From a virus, in IMG/VR virus record IMGVR_UViG_3300035180_001575, positions 1 through 48,140 of that record: a stretch of DNA of 48,140 nt. One strand, given 5' to 3'. This document shows positions 1,290 to 40,449 of this stretch, one piece after another; position 1 is the first letter of the stretch; each line of letters starts with the position of its first letter. A program made the translations under genes and the position numbers. Below the pieces are notes generated by a model. The model saw nothing but the letters and a program-made list of their open reading frames with translations. It did no database searches and had not been told where the DNA came from.

Positions 1290-1994
1290 ATGAACATAAA
1301 CATACAACCCATTGAAAAACGAGTTGGCGGCGACGGTTTTACACTTGACGTTCATTCCATCTTTTACACCATTCAGGGAGAAGGCCCGCACACAGGTCGG
1401 CCTGCTGTATTTCTTCGCCTAGCTGGTTGCAACCTGCAATGTCCCGGCTGCGATACAGAGTACACAGAAGGGCGCGAAACCCTTAGCATCCAAGAGATTA
1501 CCGCACGCATTGAGCGAAGCTACTCTCACATAGCCTTCTGGCACACTCCCATGATTGTAATTACGGGTGGGGAACCTTTTCGCCAGAACATTGCAGAACT
1601 TTGCAAGAACCTTACGCGGTACTACCACGTTCAAATTGAAACCAATGGGACACTCGGAATCGAAGACCCAACGGCATTTCGTAATGTGGATATTGTGTGC
1701 AGTCCGAAATCTGGTAAAATCCACTACAGCATACTATCTTCTGCCAACTGGTATAAGTATGTGCTTCACCACGAAAGCGTGTCGGAAGCGGATGGCCTGC
1801 CTATACTGGCGCTTGACCACAGTGCTAGCCCACAAGTCTGCCGCCCGCCAGTGGGTGCCCCAGTCTACTTGCAGCCTATGGATTGTAAGAACGATCGTAT
1901 TAATCGGCTGAATATGGAGGCTGTTCTTAAAAGCTGCCTCAAGTATGGCTACATCTTGCAAATTCAAACACACAAAATTATTGGAATCGAATAA
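1290..1994 (+). CDS. queE: 7-carboxy-7-deazaguanine synthase (radical SAM)
   Basis: QueE converts 6-carboxytetrahydropterin to 7-carboxy-7-deazaguanine, the radical SAM step of preQ0 synthesis. The 234-aa protein shows the family signature TIQGEG (27-32), the iron-sulfur cysteines C47, C51 and C54 in CNLQCPGC (CX3CX2C), the SAM-binding ITGGEP (91-96), ETNGT (about 117-121) and CSPKSGK. Length is normal for the family. The gene ends in TAATG, its stop overlapping the queD start by one base, so the two are translationally coupled. The ribosome site ahead of ATG 1290 is weak, but this start gives the usual short N-terminus. Confidence 0.95.
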   Translation: MNINIQPIEKRVGGDGFTLDVHSIFYTIQGEGPHTGRPAVFLRLAGCNLQCPGCDTEYTEGRETLSIQEITARIERSYSHIAFWHTPMIVITGGEPFRQNIAELCKNLTRYYHVQIETNGTLGIEDPTAFRNVDIVCSPKSGKIHYSILSSANWYKYVLHHESVSEADGLPILALDHSASPQVCRPPVGAPVYLQPMDCKNDRINRLNMEAVLKSCLKYGYILQIQTHKIIGIE

Positions 1995-2452
1995 TGTTTA
2001 TATCTACAAAAGAGTACGGACATGAGCTCGGCCTGTCTGCCTGTTTTCGCCAGTGGCGTGCAGAAAGCCATTGCCGCCTATTGCACGGATACGCACTTGC
2101 TGTCAAACTTACCTTTGGCGCAGTGGAATTGGATGTGCGTAACTGGGTGGTGGACTTTGGTAGCCTAAAATCCTTGAAACAAATTTTGCAAGATACGTTT
2201 GATCATACCCTGTTGGTGGCGGAGGACGACCCGTGGCTGCATAAGCTAAAAGAACTTGAAATCTATGGGCTGGCGCGGGTTGTAGTTGTCCCTGCTTGCG
2301 GTTGCGAAAAGTTTGCAGAAATGATCTTTGAAGTCACCGAAATATGGCTAAAGGACAATGGGTACATTCCCCGTGTCAAACTAATTGCTGTGGAAGTAAA
2401 AGAACATGGTGCTAACTCGGCTATTAAACTTGCAGAAGGAGCACAGCTATGA
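1994..2452 (+). CDS. queD: 6-carboxytetrahydropterin synthase, variant metal site
   Basis: QueD family (6-pyruvoyl-tetrahydropterin synthase fold), converting dihydroneopterin triphosphate to 6-carboxytetrahydropterin. The 152-aa sequence keeps the catalytic cysteine and one zinc histidine in HCRLLHGY (C27, H31), the DH pair (D70, H71) and a glutamate in GCEKFAE (E105). Two of the three usual zinc histidines are changed: the FxAAH position is Phe18 and the usual HGH is HGY (Tyr33). His26, next to the catalytic cysteine, could substitute. Position between queE and folE, with overlaps on both sides, leaves little doubt of its pathway; the altered site may mean a divergent active site. Confidence 0.88.
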   Translation: MFISTKEYGHELGLSACFRQWRAESHCRLLHGYALAVKLTFGAVELDVRNWVVDFGSLKSLKQILQDTFDHTLLVAEDDPWLHKLKELEIYGLARVVVVPACGCEKFAEMIFEVTEIWLKDNGYIPRVKLIAVEVKEHGANSAIKLAEGAQL

Positions 2453-3045
2453 ACGAAGCATACAAAGACTTGCCAGAAGAAGCCCGTGCAGCCATCAAGC
2501 AAGAAGTTATTTACGACTTGCTTGCAGAAGTAATTGGGCAAGATCCGAAACGCGAAGGTTTGTCCGAAACTCCTGCCCGTGTGGTCAAGGCTTGGGAATT
2601 CTGGACAAGTGGCTATGCACTCAAAGCAGAAGACATTCTTAAAGTATTTGAGGATGGCGCGGATGGCTATAACGAAATGATTGTTCGTAAAAACATACCA
2701 ATCTATTCGCACTGTGAGCATCACCTTGCAGCCATTATTGGTCGCTGCACAATTGCCTATATCCCTAACGGAAAAATCGTAGGGTTGTCCAAAATGGACC
2801 GTCTTGCAGATATGTTTGCCCGCAGACTACAGGTGCAAGAACGTATGACCACACAAATTGCGGATGCCATGTATTCGATTCTAACTCCCTTGGGTGTTGG
2901 TGTGTGGATAAGCGCAAGACACCTTTGCGTAGAATCCCGAGGTGTTAATAACCAAGACTCCGAGACTGTTACCTGTGCTTTGCGTGGTGTATTTCAAGAC
3001 CGACCAGAAACACGTTCTGAGTTTTTATCTCTCGCAAGGAGCTAG
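2449..3045 (+). CDS. folE: GTP cyclohydrolase I
   Basis: FolE opens GTP to dihydroneopterin triphosphate, the first step of the preQ0 pathway. The 198-aa protein has the family core: HCEHHL (zinc ligands C89 and H92), the conserved GLSKMDRL segment, FARRLQVQER and ARHLCVESRG (H158, third zinc ligand C160). The length is near that of bacterial FolE. The ATG overlaps the queD stop by four bases (ATGA). The phage thus supplies its own entry enzyme rather than relying on host folate synthesis. Confidence 0.96.
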   Translation: MNEAYKDLPEEARAAIKQEVIYDLLAEVIGQDPKREGLSETPARVVKAWEFWTSGYALKAEDILKVFEDGADGYNEMIVRKNIPIYSHCEHHLAAIIGRCTIAYIPNGKIVGLSKMDRLADMFARRLQVQERMTTQIADAMYSILTPLGVGVWISARHLCVESRGVNNQDSETVTCALRGVFQDRPETRSEFLSLARS

Positions 3046-3046
3046 T

Positions 3047-3491
3047 ATGTTAGCAGGATCTGTTAAACCAATGTCTGAAAAACTTAAAAAGTACAAACTT
3101 GATGAGAAAACTGGTTGTTGGCTTTGGACAGGTTCTGTTGACAAAAACGGCTATGGGCGCATGCGCGAATCTGATCACGGTGTAGTTTGGTCTGAGCGTG
3201 CGCCTAGAGCAAGTTATTGAGAATTTAAAGGGCCAATTGAAAATTGTTTAATGGTTCTACATACTTGCAATACACCTGCTTGCATTAACCCCGAGCAATT
3301 ATATCTAGGCAATAGTAGACAAAATGGCACGGATATGGTTGCTGCGGGGAAATGCAGGAAAGTTTAAAGCAACAGGAAACAAGAATGGTATGTTTGGCCG
3401 AACAGGAGCTTTAAACCCTATGTTCGGTAAGAAACATTCTCTAGAAGCCATTGCTAAAATGTCCCAACCGAAACCAAGGCGTATAGCCTAA
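3047..3491 (+). pseudogene. Broken HNH endonuclease with NUMOD3 repeats
   Basis: An ATG one base after the folE stop opens a frame reading CWLWTGSVDKNGYGRMR, a typical start of an HNH homing endonuclease. TGA at 3218-3220 interrupts it. The same frame continues at once with EFKGPIENCLMVLHTC and NTPACINPEQLYLGN, the HNH core with its Cys pair, then stops again at about 3366. Shifting by one base from 3363 gives GNKNGMFGRTG and NPMFGKKHSLEAIAKM, NUMOD3-type DNA-binding repeats, ending at 3491. At least one nonsense change and one frameshift have therefore inactivated it. It sits in the folE-queC gap, as a free-standing homing endonuclease would. Confidence 0.85.
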
Positions 3492-3586
3492 AATAACCCG
3501 TGGCGGTGCTACCCCTAGCCCGCCGCGTTTTGGCCTGCTGTAGCCCCGGCTAGTAGGCTGCATACCCACAATTTATAGGTGCAACA

Positions 3587-4321
3587 ATGCAAAAAGTATT
3601 ACTCTCCTCCGGTGGTATGGATTCTTGGCTTCTGGCCCACGAGCCAGAACTTGCTGGTGCAATCCACTTGTTTGTCGACATTGGACAAAAGTACACCAGC
3701 AAAGAACGTACCGCATCTGCGGACCTTGCGTTTGAGCTGGGTGCAACTTGGGAACGTGTGCAAGGTCCCAACCTCGGCCAGTACGAGCACAGCACGGGAA
3801 TTATTCCTTTCCGCAATGCGCAGATGCTTTTGTTGGCTGGTCTGTACGGAGAGGAAATTTACTTCGGCGTTATTGCCGATGAAATTAATAGCGATAAAAG
3901 CCCCGAGTTTGTGCAAGCCATTCAGGACACCATGAATATTAGCCACAGGGCACAGTATTGGACGCATGGGAAGAACTACAAGATACTTACGCCATTTCGC
4001 CAGTACACAAAGAGCGAATTGGTACGGCGTTTCCTAGCGAATGGCGGAAGCCTTGACCGATTGCTTACATCGGTATCCTGCTACGATGCGGGAGACCAAC
4101 ACTGTGGTCGTTGCCCCAGTTGTTTCAAGCGCTGGGTTGCATTGGTAAATGCTACCAACCAAGATAACTGGGAGCAGTGGGGCTTTGTGCAACATCCCTA
4201 CACTTGGAAGTCGCGTGGAGAGTGGTACACAAAGATGAAGGATTACAGCGAAGAACGCGCCGGGGAAATTTTTGGTGCCTTTGTTACTGCTGGCGAAATG
4301 CTTACGCTTAAAAAGAAATGA
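3587..4321 (+). CDS. queC: 7-cyano-7-deazaguanine (preQ0) synthase
   Basis: QueC uses ATP and ammonia to turn 7-carboxy-7-deazaguanine into preQ0. The 244-aa protein starts with the PP-loop SGGMDS (8-13) and carries the zinc cysteines C165, C173, C176 and C179 in CYDAGDQHCGRCPSC. No N-terminal glutamine amidotransferase domain is fused, unlike the Gat-QueC of archaeosine-making phages, so the expected product is preQ0 itself. The stop overlaps the dpdA start by four bases. ATG 3587 is chosen because the P-loop follows almost at once. The gene is cut off from folE by the dead HNH element. Confidence 0.95.
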   Translation: MQKVLLSSGGMDSWLLAHEPELAGAIHLFVDIGQKYTSKERTASADLAFELGATWERVQGPNLGQYEHSTGIIPFRNAQMLLLAGLYGEEIYFGVIADEINSDKSPEFVQAIQDTMNISHRAQYWTHGKNYKILTPFRQYTKSELVRRFLANGGSLDRLLTSVSCYDAGDQHCGRCPSCFKRWVALVNATNQDNWEQWGFVQHPYTWKSRGEWYTKMKDYSEERAGEIFGAFVTAGEMLTLKKK

Positions 4322-5250
4322 ATCTTTTCCTTGCCGCTGTCTATACCAATAACTATTGCGATGGGCAACCGCGCAATGCCGAACTAAACGAACGCGAAAA
4401 AGAAATTTTCCGTGGGATACCAAACATACTCGAAAGTTACCATTATGTTGAAAAGCAACAATATGTTGATGCAATGCGTGCTAATGGTGCCAAAGTTTTT
4501 CTTGATTCTGGTGCTTTCTCTGCTAAGTCTCTTGGGGTTAATATCGATATTAATAATTATTGCGACTACATCAAGCGCAATGCTGATATTATCCGTGTCG
4601 AGGATGGTGTACTCATGGCATCGGTACTTGACGGAATTGGCGACCCATTAAAAACTTGGCAGAACCAACTCTACATGGAGTCTCAAGGTGCAACCCCTTT
4701 ACCCTGTTTCCACTTTGGCGAAGACGAAAGGTATCTCGAATGGTATATTGAGCGATACCCATATATCACAATCGGAGGCATGGTTCGTACTAAAGCCGAA
4801 GATGTTATGCAATGGCTTGACCGTATATGGAACAGGTACTTGGTAGATGGAGCAGGTCGGCCAAAAGTTAAAGCCCATGCATTCGGAGTTACCACAATAT
4901 CTCTCATGGAACGGTACCCGTGGCATAGTGTTGACAGTTCCTCCTGGATTCAAGCGACGGCTTTTGGAAGTATTTACACATCAGAATATGGCCCCATTTG
5001 CGTGTCAGATCAATCTCCAAGCAGGCAAGACATGGGACGGCACTTTAGCACCTATTCTGAGATTGAAAAGCACCAGCTTTACAAACTTCTGGAAGCAAAA
5101 GGGTTCAGCTACGAGCGTTTATCCAAAGTATATCAAAGCCGCGCAGGGTACAATGCGTTAGGCTATATTGAGCTGGGCAATTTATTAAACGAACACTTTA
5201 TGAAAGCTGACGGTATGTTAGATGTTTCCAAAGTGCAACAATTATTTTAA
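4318..5250 (+). CDS. dpdA: DNA 7-deazaguanine transglycosylase (phage DpdA)
   Basis: A 310-aa protein of the phage DpdA group, distantly related to tRNA-guanine transglycosylase, which swaps guanine in DNA for a 7-deazaguanine base. Seen in the sequence: FLDSGAFSAK (D63) matching the DSGxF motif of the family, VLDGIGDP (104-110), IGGMV (152-156), HAFG (187-190) and VDSSSW (D206), a TIM-barrel-like series of strand-end motifs. D63 and D206 are the likely catalytic pair (inference). It directly overlaps queC, so the precursor enzymes and the inserting enzyme are made together. The assignment rests on motifs plus context. Confidence 0.9.
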   Translation: MNLFLAAVYTNNYCDGQPRNAELNEREKEIFRGIPNILESYHYVEKQQYVDAMRANGAKVFLDSGAFSAKSLGVNIDINNYCDYIKRNADIIRVEDGVLMASVLDGIGDPLKTWQNQLYMESQGATPLPCFHFGEDERYLEWYIERYPYITIGGMVRTKAEDVMQWLDRIWNRYLVDGAGRPKVKAHAFGVTTISLMERYPWHSVDSSSWIQATAFGSIYTSEYGPICVSDQSPSRQDMGRHFSTYSEIEKHQLYKLLEAKGFSYERLSKVYQSRAGYNALGYIELGNLLNEHFMKADGMLDVSKVQQLF

Positions 5251-6849: not shown

Positions 6850-8853
6850 ATGGCAATTCGCGCAGATTCTATTGGGCTGTTTTGGGAAGACGAAGTTAAG
6901 GTCAAGGCCCCACCAGTAGAAAAGATTAAGCGCACTCCGCCAGAACGTGTTTGGGAGAACCCCGACTACTTACCAGACCTAGAAATTGCCAAGCTGTTTA
7001 AGCCTGTGTTCTACGAAGAACACGAGTTGGCACAAATATCCGAACCGCTGGTATTTGACTCCGAGATTTATCCAAACTATGTGCTGCTAGCCTTCCGCGG
7101 AATAGACTCTAAAAAGTCCGTGTACTTTGAGATAGACAACAAGCCTTGCGGGCGCACTGCGCATCTGCCAAAGCTAAAATGGCTTTTGGAACACAAGTGC
7201 ATTATTAACTTCAATGGCCGCAAGTTCGACTTTGTTATTGCCGCCTTAGTTCTACACGGCTGTACAACGGAACAACTGTGGGATGCAACAGCTATGCTTA
7301 TCGAGCAAGGTGCGCGACCACAAGATGTTCTTGGAAAATACAAGTGTCCTAGACTGGGTAAAATAAACCAAATAGATTTGATAGACCTAACCGCCCTAAG
7401 CCCCGGCTTGAAGGTGTGTGCGGGTAGGCTGCACGCGAAGCGCATGCAGGACCTCCCGTTTGTACCCGGTAGGGCATTGACGGAAGACCAAATAGCTATT
7501 TTGTTCATGTACTGCTTTAATGACTTGGATAATACAGAGTTGCTATACCGTAGTCTGTTGGAACAGATTGCGGTGCGAGAAGATACGGGTAAGCGCTATA
7601 AGCTAGACCTGCGTAGCCACTCTGACCCACAAATGGCAGAGGCTATTATTTCCAGCGAACTAAAACGCATCACTGGTGCAAAGTTCTTCCGTCCAACCGC
7701 CCTACTTCCCGGGACGTGGTACAGATACCAAGTACCAAATTTTATCCAGTTCCAAACCCCAATGCTTAATGCGGTGTTGGAGAACGTTAGGAATGCTATA
7801 TTCCGTGTGTCGGAAGCAGATGGCAATATTATTATGCCAGAGGAATTAGCGGCAGGGACGGTCGACATAGCAGATGGTAAGTACCAGATGGGTATTGGTG
7901 GGTTGCACAGTACAGAAAGTTCTGTGTGCCATGTTGCAGACGAAAACTACTTTATTGCGGATACAGATGTTACCTCTTACTATCCGACACTAATTCTAAA
8001 CGCTGGCATCGCCCCAACCAATCTGGGTCGGGACTTCTTGAAAGTTTACAATAGCATTGTGAAAGAGCGTATTGCGGCGAAGCATGCTGGCAATAATGTG
8101 GTAGCAGATTGCTTAAAGATTGTGGTTAACGGAACATTTGGCAAGTTAGGCAGTAAGTATTCCATCATGTACGCGCCTAACTTAATGCTACAGGTAACCC
8201 TGACCGGGCAGCTTTCTTTGCTTATGCTTATTGAGGCATTTGAACTGGCAGGCATACAGGTTATATCGGCCAACACTGACGGCATTGTGGTCAAGTGCCT
8301 GCGTAGCAAGGAAGCCCTATTTAACGCGATAGTAAAAGGCTGGGAGCAGCATACCGGGTTCGGTACAGAGGAAGTTCGTTACAAGGGTGTGTACAGCCGG
8401 GACGTGAACAATTACTTTGCTGTGTACGAAAAACCACAGAAGAAAAAGCAGTTCAAGTTAAAAGGCGTTTACAGCGAGACGAACCCAAAGAAGAACGCTG
8501 TAAATGAAGTATGCATTGATGCTGCTACTGCCTTCATGGCGAATGGTACGCCTATTACGACCACAATACGCGAATGCCACCATCTGCGTAAGTTCACCAC
8601 CATGCGCCGGGTTAAGGGCGGAGGGGTAAAAGACGGGCAGTACCTTGGGAAGATAATTCGCTGGTACTACAGCACGGAGGCACAGGGGGAGATTGTGTCT
8701 GCTACAAGCGGTAATAAGGTAGCTAGAAGTGAGAATGGCAAGCCTTGTATGGACTTGCCGGATGAGTTGCCAACAGACATCGACTATGCTTGGTACGAGG
8801 CCGAGACGTACAAAATATTGAAAGAGATTGGTTACGCTAGTAGGCCGCTGTAG
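6850..8853 (+). CDS. Family B DNA polymerase with proofreading exonuclease
   Basis: 667 residues. Exonuclease motifs: FDSEIY (D70, E72), NFNGRKFDF (N122, D127) and YCFNDLD (Y221, D225). Polymerase motifs: A, DVTSYYP (373-379); B, KIVVNGTFGKLG (K423, N427, G431); C, ANTDGIV (D477), where the usual DTDS is NTDG. GIGGLHS (348-354) fits the linker between the two activities. The length is short for the family, and the neighbouring clamp-like gene argues against protein priming. It would replicate the phage genome, and has to accept 7-deazaguanine-containing template if the modification cassette is active. A predicted promoter precedes it. Confidence 0.92.
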   Translation: MAIRADSIGLFWEDEVKVKAPPVEKIKRTPPERVWENPDYLPDLEIAKLFKPVFYEEHELAQISEPLVFDSEIYPNYVLLAFRGIDSKKSVYFEIDNKPCGRTAHLPKLKWLLEHKCIINFNGRKFDFVIAALVLHGCTTEQLWDATAMLIEQGARPQDVLGKYKCPRLGKINQIDLIDLTALSPGLKVCAGRLHAKRMQDLPFVPGRALTEDQIAILFMYCFNDLDNTELLYRSLLEQIAVREDTGKRYKLDLRSHSDPQMAEAIISSELKRITGAKFFRPTALLPGTWYRYQVPNFIQFQTPMLNAVLENVRNAIFRVSEADGNIIMPEELAAGTVDIADGKYQMGIGGLHSTESSVCHVADENYFIADTDVTSYYPTLILNAGIAPTNLGRDFLKVYNSIVKERIAAKHAGNNVVADCLKIVVNGTFGKLGSKYSIMYAPNLMLQVTLTGQLSLLMLIEAFELAGIQVISANTDGIVVKCLRSKEALFNAIVKGWEQHTGFGTEEVRYKGVYSRDVNNYFAVYEKPQKKKQFKLKGVYSETNPKKNAVNEVCIDAATAFMANGTPITTTIRECHHLRKFTTMRRVKGGGVKDGQYLGKIIRWYYSTEAQGEIVSATSGNKVARSENGKPCMDLPDELPTDIDYAWYEAETYKILKEIGYASRPL

Positions 8854-34640: not shown

Positions 34641-36164
34641 TTATTTTGGTGGAGTTTGCATTTGACGCTGTGTCGGGTTAGCACCGGAGCTTCCGGGCAG
34701 TGTAGTTTCCTGCCCACCCGTGGTGTTAGTTTGGTTCACCTTTGTTCCCCCGGGAATTTGCGGCTTGTGTTCATCCATCTTTGCCAACTCCAGCGCAACC
34801 GTTTGGTCAATATCAATAACCTCGCCCCGCTGCAAGTTGTCAAACAAAGTTTGATAGTTAATAGCACCGTTCTGCCATGCCGCAACCAGTGCGGTAAGGT
34901 TGAGGGCCGACATGGGCATTGGGAAGAAGTCTTTGTTGAGGCGGAACTTAGCTTCTACGTCCGTACCAGCAAATTTAGAGAAGGTAGTGAGTGCCCGCTC
35001 AATACCAATGGATGCTGCTTGGGAGATGGAAGCTAGCATGCTTTGCTCCCCGCCCATGTGTATAGCTGCACCGCCTTGGCTGTCCCCTGTAGCCGTCTTG
35101 TTTTCTAACATCCGTGCACCCAAAACAATCATTTGGGTTTCTTTTCTGGTAAGATTTGCTTCCAGCGCCTTCAGCCCCTGCCCGGTAAACTCCAAATAGG
35201 ATGCCTTAGCATCTGGCCGTGGGAACACCCAAGCTGTCATACTGCCAATAGAAAATGATTGGCCTTCTTTTTCAGGTGTATATCCGCTAATCACTGGCGT
35301 TGGCAAGCCGGTGAAATGGCACCCGTGTTCGTAATCTGCGTTGGTACGGTAATGGGACAAGTTGATGTCTACCAAGTCTACCAATGGCGGCTCGTCTGGT
35401 TCAATGTCTACGCAGTCCGTGCCAACCACATAAAATGGAATAGCTGTAAGGTACTTGCCTTTAATTTGTGGGTACGCGGTAGATATGAGGACATCTTCGT
35501 CCTTCTCATTTACCTTAAACACCCGAACGCGGTACACCAATTCCGTCATGCCCTTTTTGGTAGGCAGTTGGAATAGATCCAAAACGCGATACTGAGTAGT
35601 CTCCACAATATCGAACTCGTTTGCGCCAGCAATGTCCATTTCTTCTGACAGTACAACCATGGAAAGGACGCTGGCATTATTGACCACGCTCTTACGCCAA
35701 TTAATAATGCTCTCCGTGCAATACTGTTTCAGTATAGGACGCAAACCAAGGCGAGTGGAATCTGCCTGCGTTGTGGTTATCGGATCGATTGTCGGAAAGT
35801 CAACAAAAATGCCAACTCGGCCAACGGTAAGGCATTCCTCAATTACTTCCAGGCAGAACATGTGGAGGTTTTGCCCATCCAACGTAACATCCTCCAACAG
35901 CTTTTCCACCGCTGGTGCAACCTCCACTATGGAGGGCTTACGGAACAGCATACCCTGCAAGCCGCTAATAGTGCGCCATGTGGCGTTGTAGAAGCTAGCA
36001 CGCTTCTTATACGCTTCGTATTCTTTATTTGTCTGGTCTGCCAATATTGGCAAATACTCAGGCCCTGCTTCATGAACTGCATCTTGGCCGTCCGCTGCAT
36101 CTCGGCAGCGTTTCCAAACAGAAGACATCTCCCGGTATTCTTCGTGTGTATTCTTCACGCCCAT
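34641..36164 (-). CDS. Portal protein (DUF4055 type)
   Basis: 507 residues. The N-terminal half shows WKRCRDAADGQDAVHEAG, YLPILADQTNKEYEAYKKRA and YNATWRTISGLQGMLFRKP, the signature of DUF4055 portals. The middle has DTISGEEM-like strand regions, and the C-terminus carries QLLGEQSM-like helices and an Asn/Gln/Gly-rich tail. It forms the dodecameric gate for DNA. ATG 36164 overlaps nothing but lies two bases after the endonuclease stop; its ribosome site is in the end of that gene. Confidence 0.9.
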   Translation of the reverse strand: MGVKNTHEEYREMSSVWKRCRDAADGQDAVHEAGPEYLPILADQTNKEYEAYKKRASFYNATWRTISGLQGMLFRKPSIVEVAPAVEKLLEDVTLDGQNLHMFCLEVIEECLTVGRVGIFVDFPTIDPITTTQADSTRLGLRPILKQYCTESIINWRKSVVNNASVLSMVVLSEEMDIAGANEFDIVETTQYRVLDLFQLPTKKGMTELVYRVRVFKVNEKDEDVLISTAYPQIKGKYLTAIPFYVVGTDCVDIEPDEPPLVDLVDINLSHYRTNADYEHGCHFTGLPTPVISGYTPEKEGQSFSIGSMTAWVFPRPDAKASYLEFTGQGLKALEANLTRKETQMIVLGARMLENKTATGDSQGGAAIHMGGEQSMLASISQAASIGIERALTTFSKFAGTDVEAKFRLNKDFFPMPMSALNLTALVAAWQNGAINYQTLFDNLQRGEVIDIDQTVALELAKMDEHKPQIPGGTKVNQTNTTGGQETTLPGSSGANPTQRQMQTPPK

Positions 36165-36166
36165 GA

Positions 36167-36907
36167 TTAAGCTCCTGAAATTTGTAATTTAGTTGCAACA
36201 AAATTTTCCAAGTCTACAAAAGACAAAATGTCTATAGCTTCTTTTTGAAACCCTGGAATTGTTTGAGAAAGAATTGGAAATGAATAGGGCACAAGTTGCT
36301 CAATAGCTAAAGCTCTGTGTCCACTCATTTCAAACTTAACACATTTGTTAAGAACATAACCGCTGCGCGATAAATTCTTTTTGTGTGTTGATAAACGGCG
36401 TTCCATTTGATTAGTTATACCATAACCTGTAAAAGATTCGCCAGCTTTTTCTGCTGCCAAAATATAAAAGGTTGCAGGTAATTCTCTTTTGAATCCCGAT
36501 GTTGCGCAATTGGGACAGCCATTACCGCCCATAGGTTTGATAAAATTAACAATAGTAGAAGAGTTCCAAGTGTGGCTACACACAAGACACTCTAATTGAA
36601 TTTTGGAAGAGCTGTTTACTTGCCCTGTTACAAACCCTAAAAACTTGCAAAATTTTTCCTCCGCAATTCTGGATATTTTTACGGCATACTGCGCAGGTGT
36701 CCATTTGCGGCAAGACCCACATCCGCAAGGAAATTGAAACTTCTCAAGTCGGTCTTTAGTTGTTGTAAAAATTCCGTTGCCAAAAAGCTCGGTATCCTTT
36801 GCACAGGTGTGACAAAATACTTTATAAGTAATTAACCCAGCATCCCTGTTAGAAGATATAACTTCCAACTGCAACGCTAGGCCAAATCTGGTTCCGGGTT
36901 TAAGCAT
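36167..36907 (-). CDS. GIY-YIG-like homing endonuclease with zinc-binding modules
   Basis: 246 residues from ATG 36907, one base after the terL stop. Four CxxC-like groups (C32/C35, C61-C66, C107/C110, C131/C134) precede a GIY-YIG-like segment: ATFYILAAEKAGESF, then GYGITNQMERRLSTHKKN. In the core the usual GIY and YIG are FYI and YGI, with Arg171 and His175 in their expected places. It is probably a free-standing homing endonuclease placed between terL and portal. It ends in the residues ISGA, the same last four as TerL. Catalytic competence is uncertain. Confidence 0.78.
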   Translation of the reverse strand: MLKPGTRFGLALQLEVISSNRDAGLITYKVFCHTCAKDTELFGNGIFTTTKDRLEKFQFPCGCGSCRKWTPAQYAVKISRIAEEKFCKFLGFVTGQVNSSSKIQLECLVCSHTWNSSTIVNFIKPMGGNGCPNCATSGFKRELPATFYILAAEKAGESFTGYGITNQMERRLSTHKKNLSRSGYVLNKCVKFEMSGHRALAIEQLVPYSFPILSQTIPGFQKEAIDILSFVDLENFVATKLQISGA

Positions 36908-36908
36908 A

Positions 36909-39359
36909 TTAGGCACCGCTAATCTTAACTCTGTGTACGGTATGGTCCGCGGATAATACCATGTAACGGCAGTCATCAGCAATGTGATCTTCAGCATCGG
37001 TATTAACGTCATCGGGGTCCCGTGTATCGCGTGCAATACTTGGGACAGTGCGAATAAAGTCGCGGCAGGTGTTGAACACGTAGAAACCCGGCTTGTCTTC
37101 GGCCTTGGCAACTGCATCCATTCTATCGCGCATCAATTCCCAGCCATTCTTACGGCTCCCGGGACGCTTATCCGCTGGTATCCAAAATACACCTTCTACT
37201 TCCATATTTTGTCCAATGGAGGCTTCGTCTGTTACCGCATAAATAGCGCTATCCGCAGGCCCCGGCTGCACACGGTTTTGGATACGCATTTGTGTTTCGC
37301 GTATCAGTATTCCTTGTGCTACAACCTTGGCAGGCATGCGCAAACCTTCGTTTGCACGCCCGTCGCTACCATACCACTCTCCTATGCGGAACAGAGTTTT
37401 ACGTGGGAAGGAAATTTTACGCCCGTCTTTCAGCGTTGCATCCGTACCATCGCTTACAGCCCACCAGCCAACGCTGAAAGGTTTAGAACTACCCCAGTCA
37501 AAACTTCTGGTAACGCGCCAGCTGAACGGAATTTCGAACGGCTCGATAACATGCTTCGTGGCATCCCACAAATCGTCAAACATGCCGCCGCTGGTAATGT
37601 CCCAGCTACCTTCTAGCCAAGCCTTACGCTTGTTCTCATCTGTAATCGACTCCAGCGTCTTAATGTACTCTTCGCCTAAGTACGGGTTTTCCTTCACACT
37701 TCCAAACAAAGCACAACGCTGGTTGCCTTCTTTATCTTTGATAATTTTACCGTAAGGTGCTGGGTCAATGAAATAATTTTTGACCCAAGCATGGCCGACG
37801 CCATAGGGGTTCGTGCTACTGCGTATAAGCCGGGGCAAGTGTGGTAGGCGTGCGGTGCCTTGGAAACTGCTACGATTGCAAGATTTCATGGATTCATAGC
37901 ATGCAATGCTGGGCCAACTTGTCAACTCTTCCCATCCTATAAATGGATACTCGTGTCCGTGGTAGCTCCAGTAATCTTCTTCATTCTCAAACGCCCGCAG
38001 CAACAATTCTTCCCCCGTAGGCCAAACCCACTTCAAGGAGGACGAACCTGCAAGGAATCTTGGCTGCTGTGCACTCTTATTGAACCAGCGTTTGGACTTG
38101 GCTATAATGTCGTCCAAGTGCTTATAGTTGCGCCGAAAAATGATGCCACGAAAGTAATCACCATAGCCACGACCACAATACTGAGCAAACGACATCAGCA
38201 TGGCATCCGTGTTGTGTGTGACAACAAAATCGTTTGTTACAAACAAACCATCTGGATGCGCAATTTTAATGCACACAGTTTCTTCTGGTTCTTGTTCTTC
38301 AATGCTACACATCTTGTTTGTAAGATGTTTGTGCATGTACGGTTTAATGCGGTCTATTTTGCGTTTTAAACGAAACGGGCTAAATTTTCCTGCTGTTTGA
38401 ATATAAACGTTGTAGGCACGCTGATGGGCAATGCCAGTTTCTAATCCGTAGTTGCCAGACAGACTACTTGTTAGCGTTGCCTTAGCACCAAGAGAGCGGG
38501 CTAGGTACTGCACGTCCTTTGCCAGTTGTTCGCTAACACTGCAAAATGTAACATAGCCTTTTTTATCAATTGTTCCGTCTGTGTCCATTAAACCTTGCAA
38601 CACAGCAAGACGCACTTCTGGAGAATTATTTAAATAAACGGTTGGCACAAACTTTGTATGAGAACGAGTTTCCTTTAAACCTAATTCAACAACTTGATCC
38701 CGAATTTCTTGTGTTGGGATAAAACAACGCAAGCCGCTGCGAGGATCTGGAGAAACTTCGTAAATTCCGTTGGCGAGAACGTACTGTGCAAGTTCTTCGT
38801 CAACTGTGCAATAACCCATACGCTGCGCAAACGTGCCATCTCCAAGCATTAGGCCCAGAAGGTAAGCGTTCATTGGCACGTAACTTTCGGCCATAGGCAT
38901 TTCTAATCTAGCAAGAGTAGGAATTGTAATTCTTTTCCAACCAGTATTAAAATGCTCTAATAATACAAGCATTTGCACGTTCTTAAACGTCCCGGCTGGT
39001 ATACGGCTATTGTCTGCAATATGCACGTTCCAAATGTGCTGATCGTCGCAACGTGCCACGGCACCATCTGCAAAAGTAATTTTGAAGACGCGTCGTTTGC
39101 CTTGCGGGAACACGCCGATAATAGGTGAAACTGTTCCGTCAGGGCAGCTAACCAAGTCCCCAACTCTAAGTTCGCCAATAGGACGCGGGCCGCTTGTTGT
39201 ATAAACGGTCTCGCTTAATGGCAATCCCTTTCCTGGACCGCGTGTTCCTGCAAAGCAGACTTCTCGGACCGGGGACGAAAGAAATAAACTCTGACTTCCT
39301 GGTAGGGCCTTCCAAATAGCATACTGCTTTGGAGCTGTGGGAGGGGTACCGAAGAGCAT
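36909..39359 (-). CDS. terL: Terminase large subunit precursor carrying an intein
   Basis: 816 residues as coded, 477 after removal of the 339-residue intein. TerL cuts concatemers and drives DNA into the procapsid. The host Walker A motif GTRGPGKT is interrupted between Lys44 and Thr384, so the ATPase cannot work unless spliced. After the intein come FIGWEELTSWP (Walker B with the catalytic Glu), SSTNPYGVGHAWVK, and the C-terminal nuclease with SFDWGSSKPFSV and EDHIADDCRYMVL. The start overlaps the terS stop (TAATG). The ORF ends KISGA, three bases before the endonuclease gene's ATG. Confidence 0.93.
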   Translation of the reverse strand: MLFGTPPTAPKQYAIWKALPGSQSLFLSSPVREVCFAGTRGPGKGLPLSETVYTTSGPRPIGELRVGDLVSCPDGTVSPIIGVFPQGKRRVFKITFADGAVARCDDQHIWNVHIADNSRIPAGTFKNVQMLVLLEHFNTGWKRITIPTLARLEMPMAESYVPMNAYLLGLMLGDGTFAQRMGYCTVDEELAQYVLANGIYEVSPDPRSGLRCFIPTQEIRDQVVELGLKETRSHTKFVPTVYLNNSPEVRLAVLQGLMDTDGTIDKKGYVTFCSVSEQLAKDVQYLARSLGAKATLTSSLSGNYGLETGIAHQRAYNVYIQTAGKFSPFRLKRKIDRIKPYMHKHLTNKMCSIEEQEPEETVCIKIAHPDGLFVTNDFVVTHNTDAMLMSFAQYCGRGYGDYFRGIIFRRNYKHLDDIIAKSKRWFNKSAQQPRFLAGSSSLKWVWPTGEELLLRAFENEEDYWSYHGHEYPFIGWEELTSWPSIACYESMKSCNRSSFQGTARLPHLPRLIRSSTNPYGVGHAWVKNYFIDPAPYGKIIKDKEGNQRCALFGSVKENPYLGEEYIKTLESITDENKRKAWLEGSWDITSGGMFDDLWDATKHVIEPFEIPFSWRVTRSFDWGSSKPFSVGWWAVSDGTDATLKDGRKISFPRKTLFRIGEWYGSDGRANEGLRMPAKVVAQGILIRETQMRIQNRVQPGPADSAIYAVTDEASIGQNMEVEGVFWIPADKRPGSRKNGWELMRDRMDAVAKAEDKPGFYVFNTCRDFIRTVPSIARDTRDPDDVNTDAEDHIADDCRYMVLSADHTVHRVKISGA
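38211..39227 (-). mobile_element. Class 3-like intein with LAGLIDADG endonuclease
   Basis: 339 residues, spanning precursor positions 45-383. Block A is GLPLSETVYTTSG, with Gly where Cys or Ser should be the first nucleophile. Block B has DDQHIW (His63, Trp66, intein numbering). The C-terminal blocks read TVCIKIAHPDGLFV (Cys319) and FVVTHN followed by Thr (Thr337, His338, Asn339). Trp/Cys/Thr in these places is the hallmark of class 3 inteins, which start splicing from the block F cysteine. LLGLMLGDG and LQGLMDTDG (intein about 123-131 and 210-218) are the two LAGLIDADG motifs of a homing endonuclease. Confidence 0.9.
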
Positions 39360-39895
39360 TAAGCAACGGCTTTCAACTGGGGTGGACTAGATGGTTTAAT
39401 AAGTTCTGCCTGCTGGGCCTCTGCCTGCGCTGCCCACTCCTCCGCCGTCACCATCCCCGGCACCACAAACACGCCGCTTCCAAGCAGTTGTCCATCTGCA
39501 CCAGTAAGTTCGGTTTTGGTTTGCTTTGGTGCATCCATGCCGTAAAAGGCACTTAGCTTGGAAAGTGCAGCAACGCGAGCAGCTTGGCTACTACCCGCCC
39601 CCATATTCTTCGCCTCCTTCCACAGCGCAGTAACAATCATGCGTTTCTGAACATCAATGTCCAAATTGTCAGTGCTACCACCCTCGGCCTCACGAATTTT
39701 CGTAAGGACGTAAGGCTCTGTCATGAAGCGTACAGAAAAATCCTTTGCGTAGGCCGGTGCGTAGCCAATACGGATAGCGGCCTTATACTGGTCGTAGTCT
39801 GTCAGGTATTCCGTCACAAATCGATCACGCAGCTCCATTTCCGAGGCCGTAAGCGCCGGAGCAAAGCTAGATTGATTATTTTCGAGGGGTTCCAT
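39359..39895 (-). CDS. terS: Terminase small subunit
   Basis: 178 residues. The N-terminal region has an HTH-like helical pattern (LTASEMELRDRFVTEYL, then DQYKAAIRIGYAPAYAKD and EPYVLTKIREAE) typical of TerS DNA-recognition. The middle is helical and the C-terminus is flexible, rich in Ala, Gln and Pro. It selects phage DNA for packaging and stimulates TerL. It stands directly before terL with an overlapping stop/start. Confidence 0.85.
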   Translation of the reverse strand: MEPLENNQSSFAPALTASEMELRDRFVTEYLTDYDQYKAAIRIGYAPAYAKDFSVRFMTEPYVLTKIREAEGGSTDNLDIDVQKRMIVTALWKEAKNMGAGSSQAARVAALSKLSAFYGMDAPKQTKTELTGADGQLLGSGVFVVPGMVTAEEWAAQAEAQQAELIKPSSPPQLKAVA

Positions 39896-39897
39896 AA

Positions 39898-40449
39898 CTA
39901 TATCCCGTGATTTGCAAACTGCTCATGGGCGTTTGTTCTTGCAATTGCAATAGCTGCAGAGGCATCGTTTATGTTGTTAAAATGCCCAATCCGGATACGC
40001 TTTCCATTAACTCCAATTTTTGCAAGCCACTTACCCTTATCCAAACTAACACCCTTTATACCGGAAGTGTTATTTGACGCAATACTTCTATTTTCGCTAT
40101 TATTTGTGGATGTTGCAAGACGAAGATTTGAAATCTTGTTGTTTAGCGTGTTAGTGTCTTGGTGATCAACCTCTTTGTCCTTAGGGATAGCACCATTATG
40201 CATTGTCCAAATAACGCGGTGAGCATACAGCTTTATTTTCTTCCCGCAGTATGTCAGATTAATTTTTACATATTTTGTGTCAACTGTTCCTGCAATCTTT
40301 CCTGTAAACGTTACTAAAAATTTTTCGTAACTTTGCAAAGACTGAAAATGGTGCAACGGACGTTCCTTCCAAACCAAAGTGCCATCCGCGCAGAAAATGA
40401 AACATTCGTTCAAATACTGCTGTGGTGGTAAAGGCTTTGCATTAAGCAT
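39898..40449 (-). CDS. HNH homing endonuclease with AP2-like domain
   Basis: 183 residues. An N-terminal module is followed by the HNH core HRVIWTMHNGAIPKDKEVDH, then NTLNNKISNLRLATSTNNSEN, and by a C-terminal AP2-like domain (SGIKGVSLDKGKWLAKIGVN, IRIGHFNNINDASAAI). The HNH residues are all visible, so it is likely active. It lies between the late promoter at 40487 and terS, two bases before the terS ATG. Free-standing HNH endonucleases commonly sit in intergenic sites of this kind. Confidence 0.9.
   Translation of the reverse strand: MLNAKPLPPQQYLNECFIFCADGTLVWKERPLHHFQSLQSYEKFLVTFTGKIAGTVDTKYVKINLTYCGKKIKLYAHRVIWTMHNGAIPKDKEVDHQDTNTLNNKISNLRLATSTNNSENRSIASNNTSGIKGVSLDKGKWLAKIGVNGKRIRIGHFNNINDASAAIAIARTNAHEQFANHGI

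Follow-up and report, generated by a model that had tools for sequence, protein, structure and literature searches.

What is the insert that splits the Walker A motif of a phage large terminase (TerL), and does it look able to splice and to move? The window, a stretch of 48,140 nucleotides of viral DNA, contains a terL open reading frame of 816 amino acids (39359–36909, minus strand), located between terS (39359–39895) and the portal gene (34641–36164). Residues 45–383 of this frame form an in-frame insert of 339 residues, which begins with GLPLSETVY and ends with FVVTHN. The insert is flanked by GTRGPGK upstream and TDAMLMSF downstream, placing the break point between Walker A residues Lys44 and Thr45, and joining the flanks without it gives a computed TerL of 477 residues. 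The GC content of the insert is 44%, compared with 50% for the exteins. The C-extein matched Pfam Terminase_3 and Terminase_6N weakly and the PHROG terminase families clearly. A megablast search of window positions 33–48 kb against named phages returned no close relatives.

Terminase relatives from viral contigs carry an uninterrupted VCFAG(T/S)RGPGKTD(A/S)ML. The GxRGPGKTD site is free of an insert in L012, L014–L020, L022–L024 and L027, whose TerL proteins are 76–89% identical to the spliced TerL of the window (89% for L012 and 76–81% for the others). Because these relatives read through the site, what the insert splits is a conserved Walker A motif, between its Lys and Thr. Profile searches of the insert gave matches above the curated cut-offs to Pfam LAGLIDADG_3 (the PF14528/PF05204 pair with Hom_end; E = 4e-12) and to Hom_end (E = 5e-8), and its whole length matched PHROGs families of intein-bearing terminases (phrog_19299, residues 8–339, E = 2e-25). 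The best PDB sequence match was the gp41-1 intein (E = 6e-12). Relatives covering at least 80% of the insert length were found in 640 phage records, and relatives overall in 685. An initial sequence-only reading had placed an intein at exactly this position in the Walker A motif, with the same length and flanks, and the open reading frame, the empty relatives and the profile matches all agree with it. That the insert inside terL is genuine is thus confirmed, and chance is ruled out. In the intein-profile search proposed by that reading, the PHROG match to intein-bearing terminases was obtained, and the Pfam Hint_2 match fell below its cut-off; the evidence for the splicing domain therefore comes from alignment and structure and not from a curated HINT profile.

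Class 3 inteins have no nucleophile at position 1 and carry Trp at B:12, Cys at F:4 and Thr at G:5 (the WCT triplet), with Ser or Thr at +1 of the C-extein (PMC5222942). The first residue of the insert is Gly, not Cys, Ser or Thr; Trp66, Cys319 and Thr337 align to B:12, F:4 and G:5, precisely where the sequence-only reading had put them; and the +1 residue is Thr. His64 (B:10), the penultimate His338 and the terminal Asn339 are also present. Block B reads DxxH instead of TxxH (Asp61-Asp62-Gln63-His64); the block B Thr is generally absent from class 3 inteins, and Msm DnaBi1 likewise has DxxH (PMC6195587). A block comparison, another check proposed at the outset, aligned the class 3 residues with those of 43 relatives (mean column identity 36%): His64, Cys319, Thr337, His338 and Asn339 are invariant, as are Asp130 and Asp215 of the endonuclease, and Trp66 is conserved in at least 90% of the rows. 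Active-site residues that stay constant despite such strong divergence argue for a working class 3 active site. Collectively, all sequence features of class 3 are present, which supports assigning the insert to this class.

We then considered the predicted fold. An AlphaFold2 model built from the relatives' alignment reached a pLDDT of 93.3 and a pTM of 0.92. Its splicing domain superposes on the class 3 intein Msm DnaBi1 (6bs8) with a Z-score of 19.6 and a deviation of 1.6 Å over 123 of 125 residues, as expected for a HINT fold, and on MchDnaB1 with a Z-score of 18.7; 6bs8 and 6rix are both matched across the entire splicing domain. Over the whole chain, the best matches among solved structures are PI-SceI, the VMA intein of yeast (Z = 26.3 over 326 aligned residues, 3.7 Å), and archaeal VMA inteins that carry an endonuclease, and the middle part of the model matches the endonuclease I-DmoI. 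Consistent with these matches and with the Pfam hits, the LAGLIDADG motifs noticed from the sequence alone correspond to two LAGLIDADG helices with catalytic acidic residues Asp130 and Asp215, and the endonuclease looks intact. Sequence, alignment and structure prediction therefore all uphold the class 3 assignment first proposed. The coordinates of the features are collected in Table 1.

Table 1. Features of the intein-bearing terL gene, in window positions.
Feature	Position	Strand	Basis
TerL N-extein, residues 1–44, last residues Walker A GTRGPGK	39228..39359	-	ORF translation; alignment of intein-free relatives spans the junction
Intein, 339 aa, Gly1 to Asn339	38211..39227	-	Sequence, profile matches, relatives' alignment
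HINT splicing domain, N-terminal half (intein residues 1 to about 110), with blocks A and B	38898..39227	-	Alignment, model, structural fit to class 3 inteins
Block B His64 (B:10) and Trp66 (B:12)	39030..39038	-	Sequence and alignment; positions defined in PMC5222942
LAGLIDADG homing endonuclease domain, intein residues about 111–300	38328..38897	-	Pfam PF14528/PF05204; PI-SceI and I-DmoI structural matches
First LAGLIDADG motif, ending LGLMLGDG, Asp130	38835..38867	-	Asp130 invariant in 43 relatives
Second LAGLIDADG motif, LQGLMDTDG, Asp215	38574..38609	-	Asp215 invariant in 43 relatives
HINT splicing domain, C-terminal half, with blocks F and G	38211..38327	-	Alignment, model, superposition
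Cys319, block F:4, proposed initiating nucleophile	38271..38273	-	Invariant in 43 aligned relatives
Thr337 (G:5), His338, Asn339 and, as first C-extein residue (+1), the Walker A Thr	38208..38219	-	Sequence and alignment
TerL C-extein (433 aa) and stop codon	36909..38210	-	ORF; Terminase_3/Terminase_6N and PHROG terminase matches

By analogy with the class 3 inteins whose mechanism has been studied (PMC5222942, PMC7664689, PMC6195587), Cys319 would attack the Lys44–Gly1 peptide bond and give a branched intermediate at block F. The N-extein would then pass to Thr+1, the Walker A Thr of the mature TerL, after which cyclisation of Asn339 would free the intein and the Lys44–Thr45 peptide bond would be made. 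A class 2-like route would instead begin with a direct attack of the +1 Thr on the N-terminal junction, and Cys319 would not act first; it shares with class 3 the missing nucleophile at position 1 (PMC5222942). We regard it as highly improbable, since the insert has the full WCT triplet together with the block B DxxH, the triplet is constant in relatives at 28–40% identity, and three native class 3 inteins with the WCT signature did not splice once Cys F:4 was replaced (PMC5222942). Because Lys44 and Thr+1 supply the Lys and the Thr of the Walker A motif, unspliced TerL should be inactive: its P-loop would be incomplete, DNA packaging is not expected from this form, and splicing is accordingly expected to be required for packaging. 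The claim that insertion at Lys|Thr makes TerL depend on splicing holds as far as sequence, alignment and predicted structure show.

An intein could also have decayed, leaving a non-functional terminase; the class 3 pseudogene Arth_1007 of Arthrobacter, which lacks Cys F:4 and did not splice, is a precedent. Such decay is exceedingly improbable here: every catalytic residue is present, the frame is open, and the downstream terminase frame is intact and conserved. Compared with L010, its closest non-identical relative, the intein has a dN of 0.052 and a dS of 0.86 (dN/dS about 0.06), and the endonuclease part a dN of 0.025 and a dS of 0.73. With dN far below dS for the intein and for its endonuclease part, both are under purifying selection and the protein is maintained. 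Further against decay, L009, an assembly from another sample, is 100% identical from intein residue 8 through the C-extein.

How did the intein reach this gene? The inteins of the window and L010 are 91% identical in protein, with a synonymous difference of 0.51, whereas their C-exteins show 78% identity and a synonymous difference of 0.89 beyond the first 45 codons, and the neighbouring TerS and portal proteins are 58% and 53% identical. The TerL nearest to that of the window, from L012, is intein-free. On a TerL tree of 64 sequences, a quick tree with SH-aLRT support only, the six carriers of a TerL-site intein require six changes. On the intein tree, which was built from relatives retrieved with the window intein and contains no class 1 outgroup, five of the six inteins form one clade (support 100); the sixth, that of L026, has an identity of only 38%. 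Six changes on the TerL tree against one clade for five of the inteins favour repeated gain by homing over vertical descent. Inteins closer than their exteins and an empty nearest TerL are likewise signs of homing. Over the first 45 codons of the C-extein, DNA identity is 84% to L010 and 77–84% to intein-free relatives; because the latter are similarly close, a co-conversion tract beside the intein is indistinguishable from ordinary conservation. In the proposed cycle, the endonuclease would cut the Walker A codons of intein-free terL genes in co-infecting phages, and repair of the break would copy the intein in, making it a selfish element sheltered by an indispensable, strongly conserved site.

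Taken together, we think it very probable that a class 3 intein whose LAGLIDADG endonuclease looks intact occupies the Walker A motif of a tailed-phage TerL; splicing, homing and selfish behaviour are predicted for it. A further function, compatible with this assignment, would be redox control, in which Cys319 and a second cysteine switch splicing and so time packaging. In class 3 Msm DnaBi1, a disulfide at the catalytic Cys118 turns splicing off, and Cys48 matters there (PMC6195587); the window intein has the additional cysteines Cys28 and Cys60. The conservation of these two is not general but confined to the closest TerL-site inteins, and neither lies at the position of DnaBi1 Cys48; we judge such control very improbable.

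Other endonuclease genes lie nearby. A free-standing endonuclease-like gene occupies 36167–36907 (minus strand) between terL and the portal gene, with a CapR zinc domain, a match to the phrog_681 endonuclease family and a weak GIY-YIG match; the ATG at which it probably starts lies 1 nt beyond the stop codon of terL, and intein-free L012 has only a few bases at this place. A GIY-YIG match in L021 and L025 was discarded, being only a long open reading frame that overlaps terL in another frame. Just upstream of terS is an HNH endonuclease gene (39898–40449, minus strand; HNH_3 and AP2-like). The window thus holds three endonucleases, each from a different family, in a stretch of about 4.3 kb around terL. 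At 1290–5250 (plus strand) it also encodes a 7-deazaguanine (preQ0-type) cluster of a radical SAM protein, QueD/PTPS, GTP cyclohydrolase I, QueC and a queuine tRNA-ribosyltransferase-like protein, which suggests that the phage DNA is modified.

We examined 145 distinct full-length relatives, from loci fetched by similarity to the window intein, so that the counts are not a census. WCT is intact in 138 of them and Cys F:4 is present in 144; the +1 residue is Thr in 106 and Ser in 36; and 111 lie directly after GK with Ser or Thr at +1. Ala is the commonest first residue of these 111 (75 cases), and Gly accounts for 8. Gly1, first described as a residue other than Cys, Ser or Ala, stands as read, but Ala is no contrary sign, given its frequency among the relatives. 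Nor did Gly1 prove to mark anything unusual: it is a minority state, and class 3 membership is not tied to residue 1. The description of class 3 inteins as rare is out of date, as 1701 were catalogued in 2020, 82.5% of them with LAGLIDADG motifs (PMC7891396), and class 3 also accounts for nearly every relative found here. The tally shows that class 3 P-loop inteins are common in environmental phages. The concentration at GK sites (111/145) is observed; more speculatively, it might reflect a class 3 homing lineage specialised on Walker A, whose endonuclease would tolerate many unrelated GK(S/T) targets and jump between P-loop ATPases, with splicing possibly gating packaging here. We consider this unlikely, and cross-gene homing and packaging gating by such a lineage are speculation.

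The window intein is genuine, intact-looking and ordinary, one more case of a well-known and common kind, and it leaves the picture of intein classes unchanged. It is a clean, apparently active class 3 case, useful for a homing or splicing test: close relatives lack an intein at this site, and the empty and filled alleles form an unusually clear set. Insertion between Lys and Thr of a terminase P-loop is not new, having been described for mycobacteriophages (PMC5050341): their site TerL1-a lies between the invariant Lys and Thr, as does the window insert. The terminase insert of YassJohnny (Kostyavirus) resembles that of the window in protein function, Lys|Thr point, WCT, +1 Thr and endonuclease size, but is 32.6% identical, starts with Ala1 instead of Gly1 and belongs to another terminase lineage (ARKNGK|TELL); by its position, we infer that it is the published TerL1-a. 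Closest are TerL-site inteins of uncultivated phages, L010/L081 (91% identical), L082/L160 (63%), L011/L161 (58%) and L013/L064/L162 (52%), which share the GxRGPGK|TD site, Gly1 and WCT and form one clade, whereas their host phages differ and are interspersed with intein-free ones. Related terminases also carry different inteins at other sites (L066, 2535–3721; L074, 1593–2614; L075, 3789–4876; L076, about 6885–7483); those of L066, L074 and L075 lie in NP-H-G and HGH motifs, start with Cys, end in SGN before Ser and are apparently class 1. The terminase gene has been invaded at several conserved motifs among these relatives.

Beyond terminases, the DnaBi1 class 3 inteins of M. smegmatis, M. 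chimaera and M. leprae share WCT, the splicing-domain fold and a P-loop insertion, there before Ser. Unlike the window intein, they are mini-inteins without an endonuclease and reside in a helicase; Msm DnaBi1 has the same DxxH but Ala1 in place of Gly1 (PMC6195587). P-loop class 3 inteins of DnaB have already been spliced and crystallised (PMC5222942, PMC6195587). The gp41-1 intein (PDB 6qaz, 6riz) has the same C-terminal THN, whereas its natural form is class 1 (Cys1); 6riz, engineered to carry WCT, gave no productive splicing (PMC7664689). Many Streptomyces genomes (L163–L175 and others) carry a related class 3 P-loop intein, 33–37% identical to that of the window, inserted at GEVGSGK|T in a single conserved P-loop protein. 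The jumbo phages Klebsiella phage N1M2, Salmonella phage SA002 and Aeromonas phage AerS_266 have full-length P-loop class 3 LAGLIDADG relatives (33–36% identity) with WCT, inserted at GK|T in N1M2 and SA002 as in the window; these differ in residing in other P-loop proteins or terminase lineages and in having Ala or another residue at position 1.
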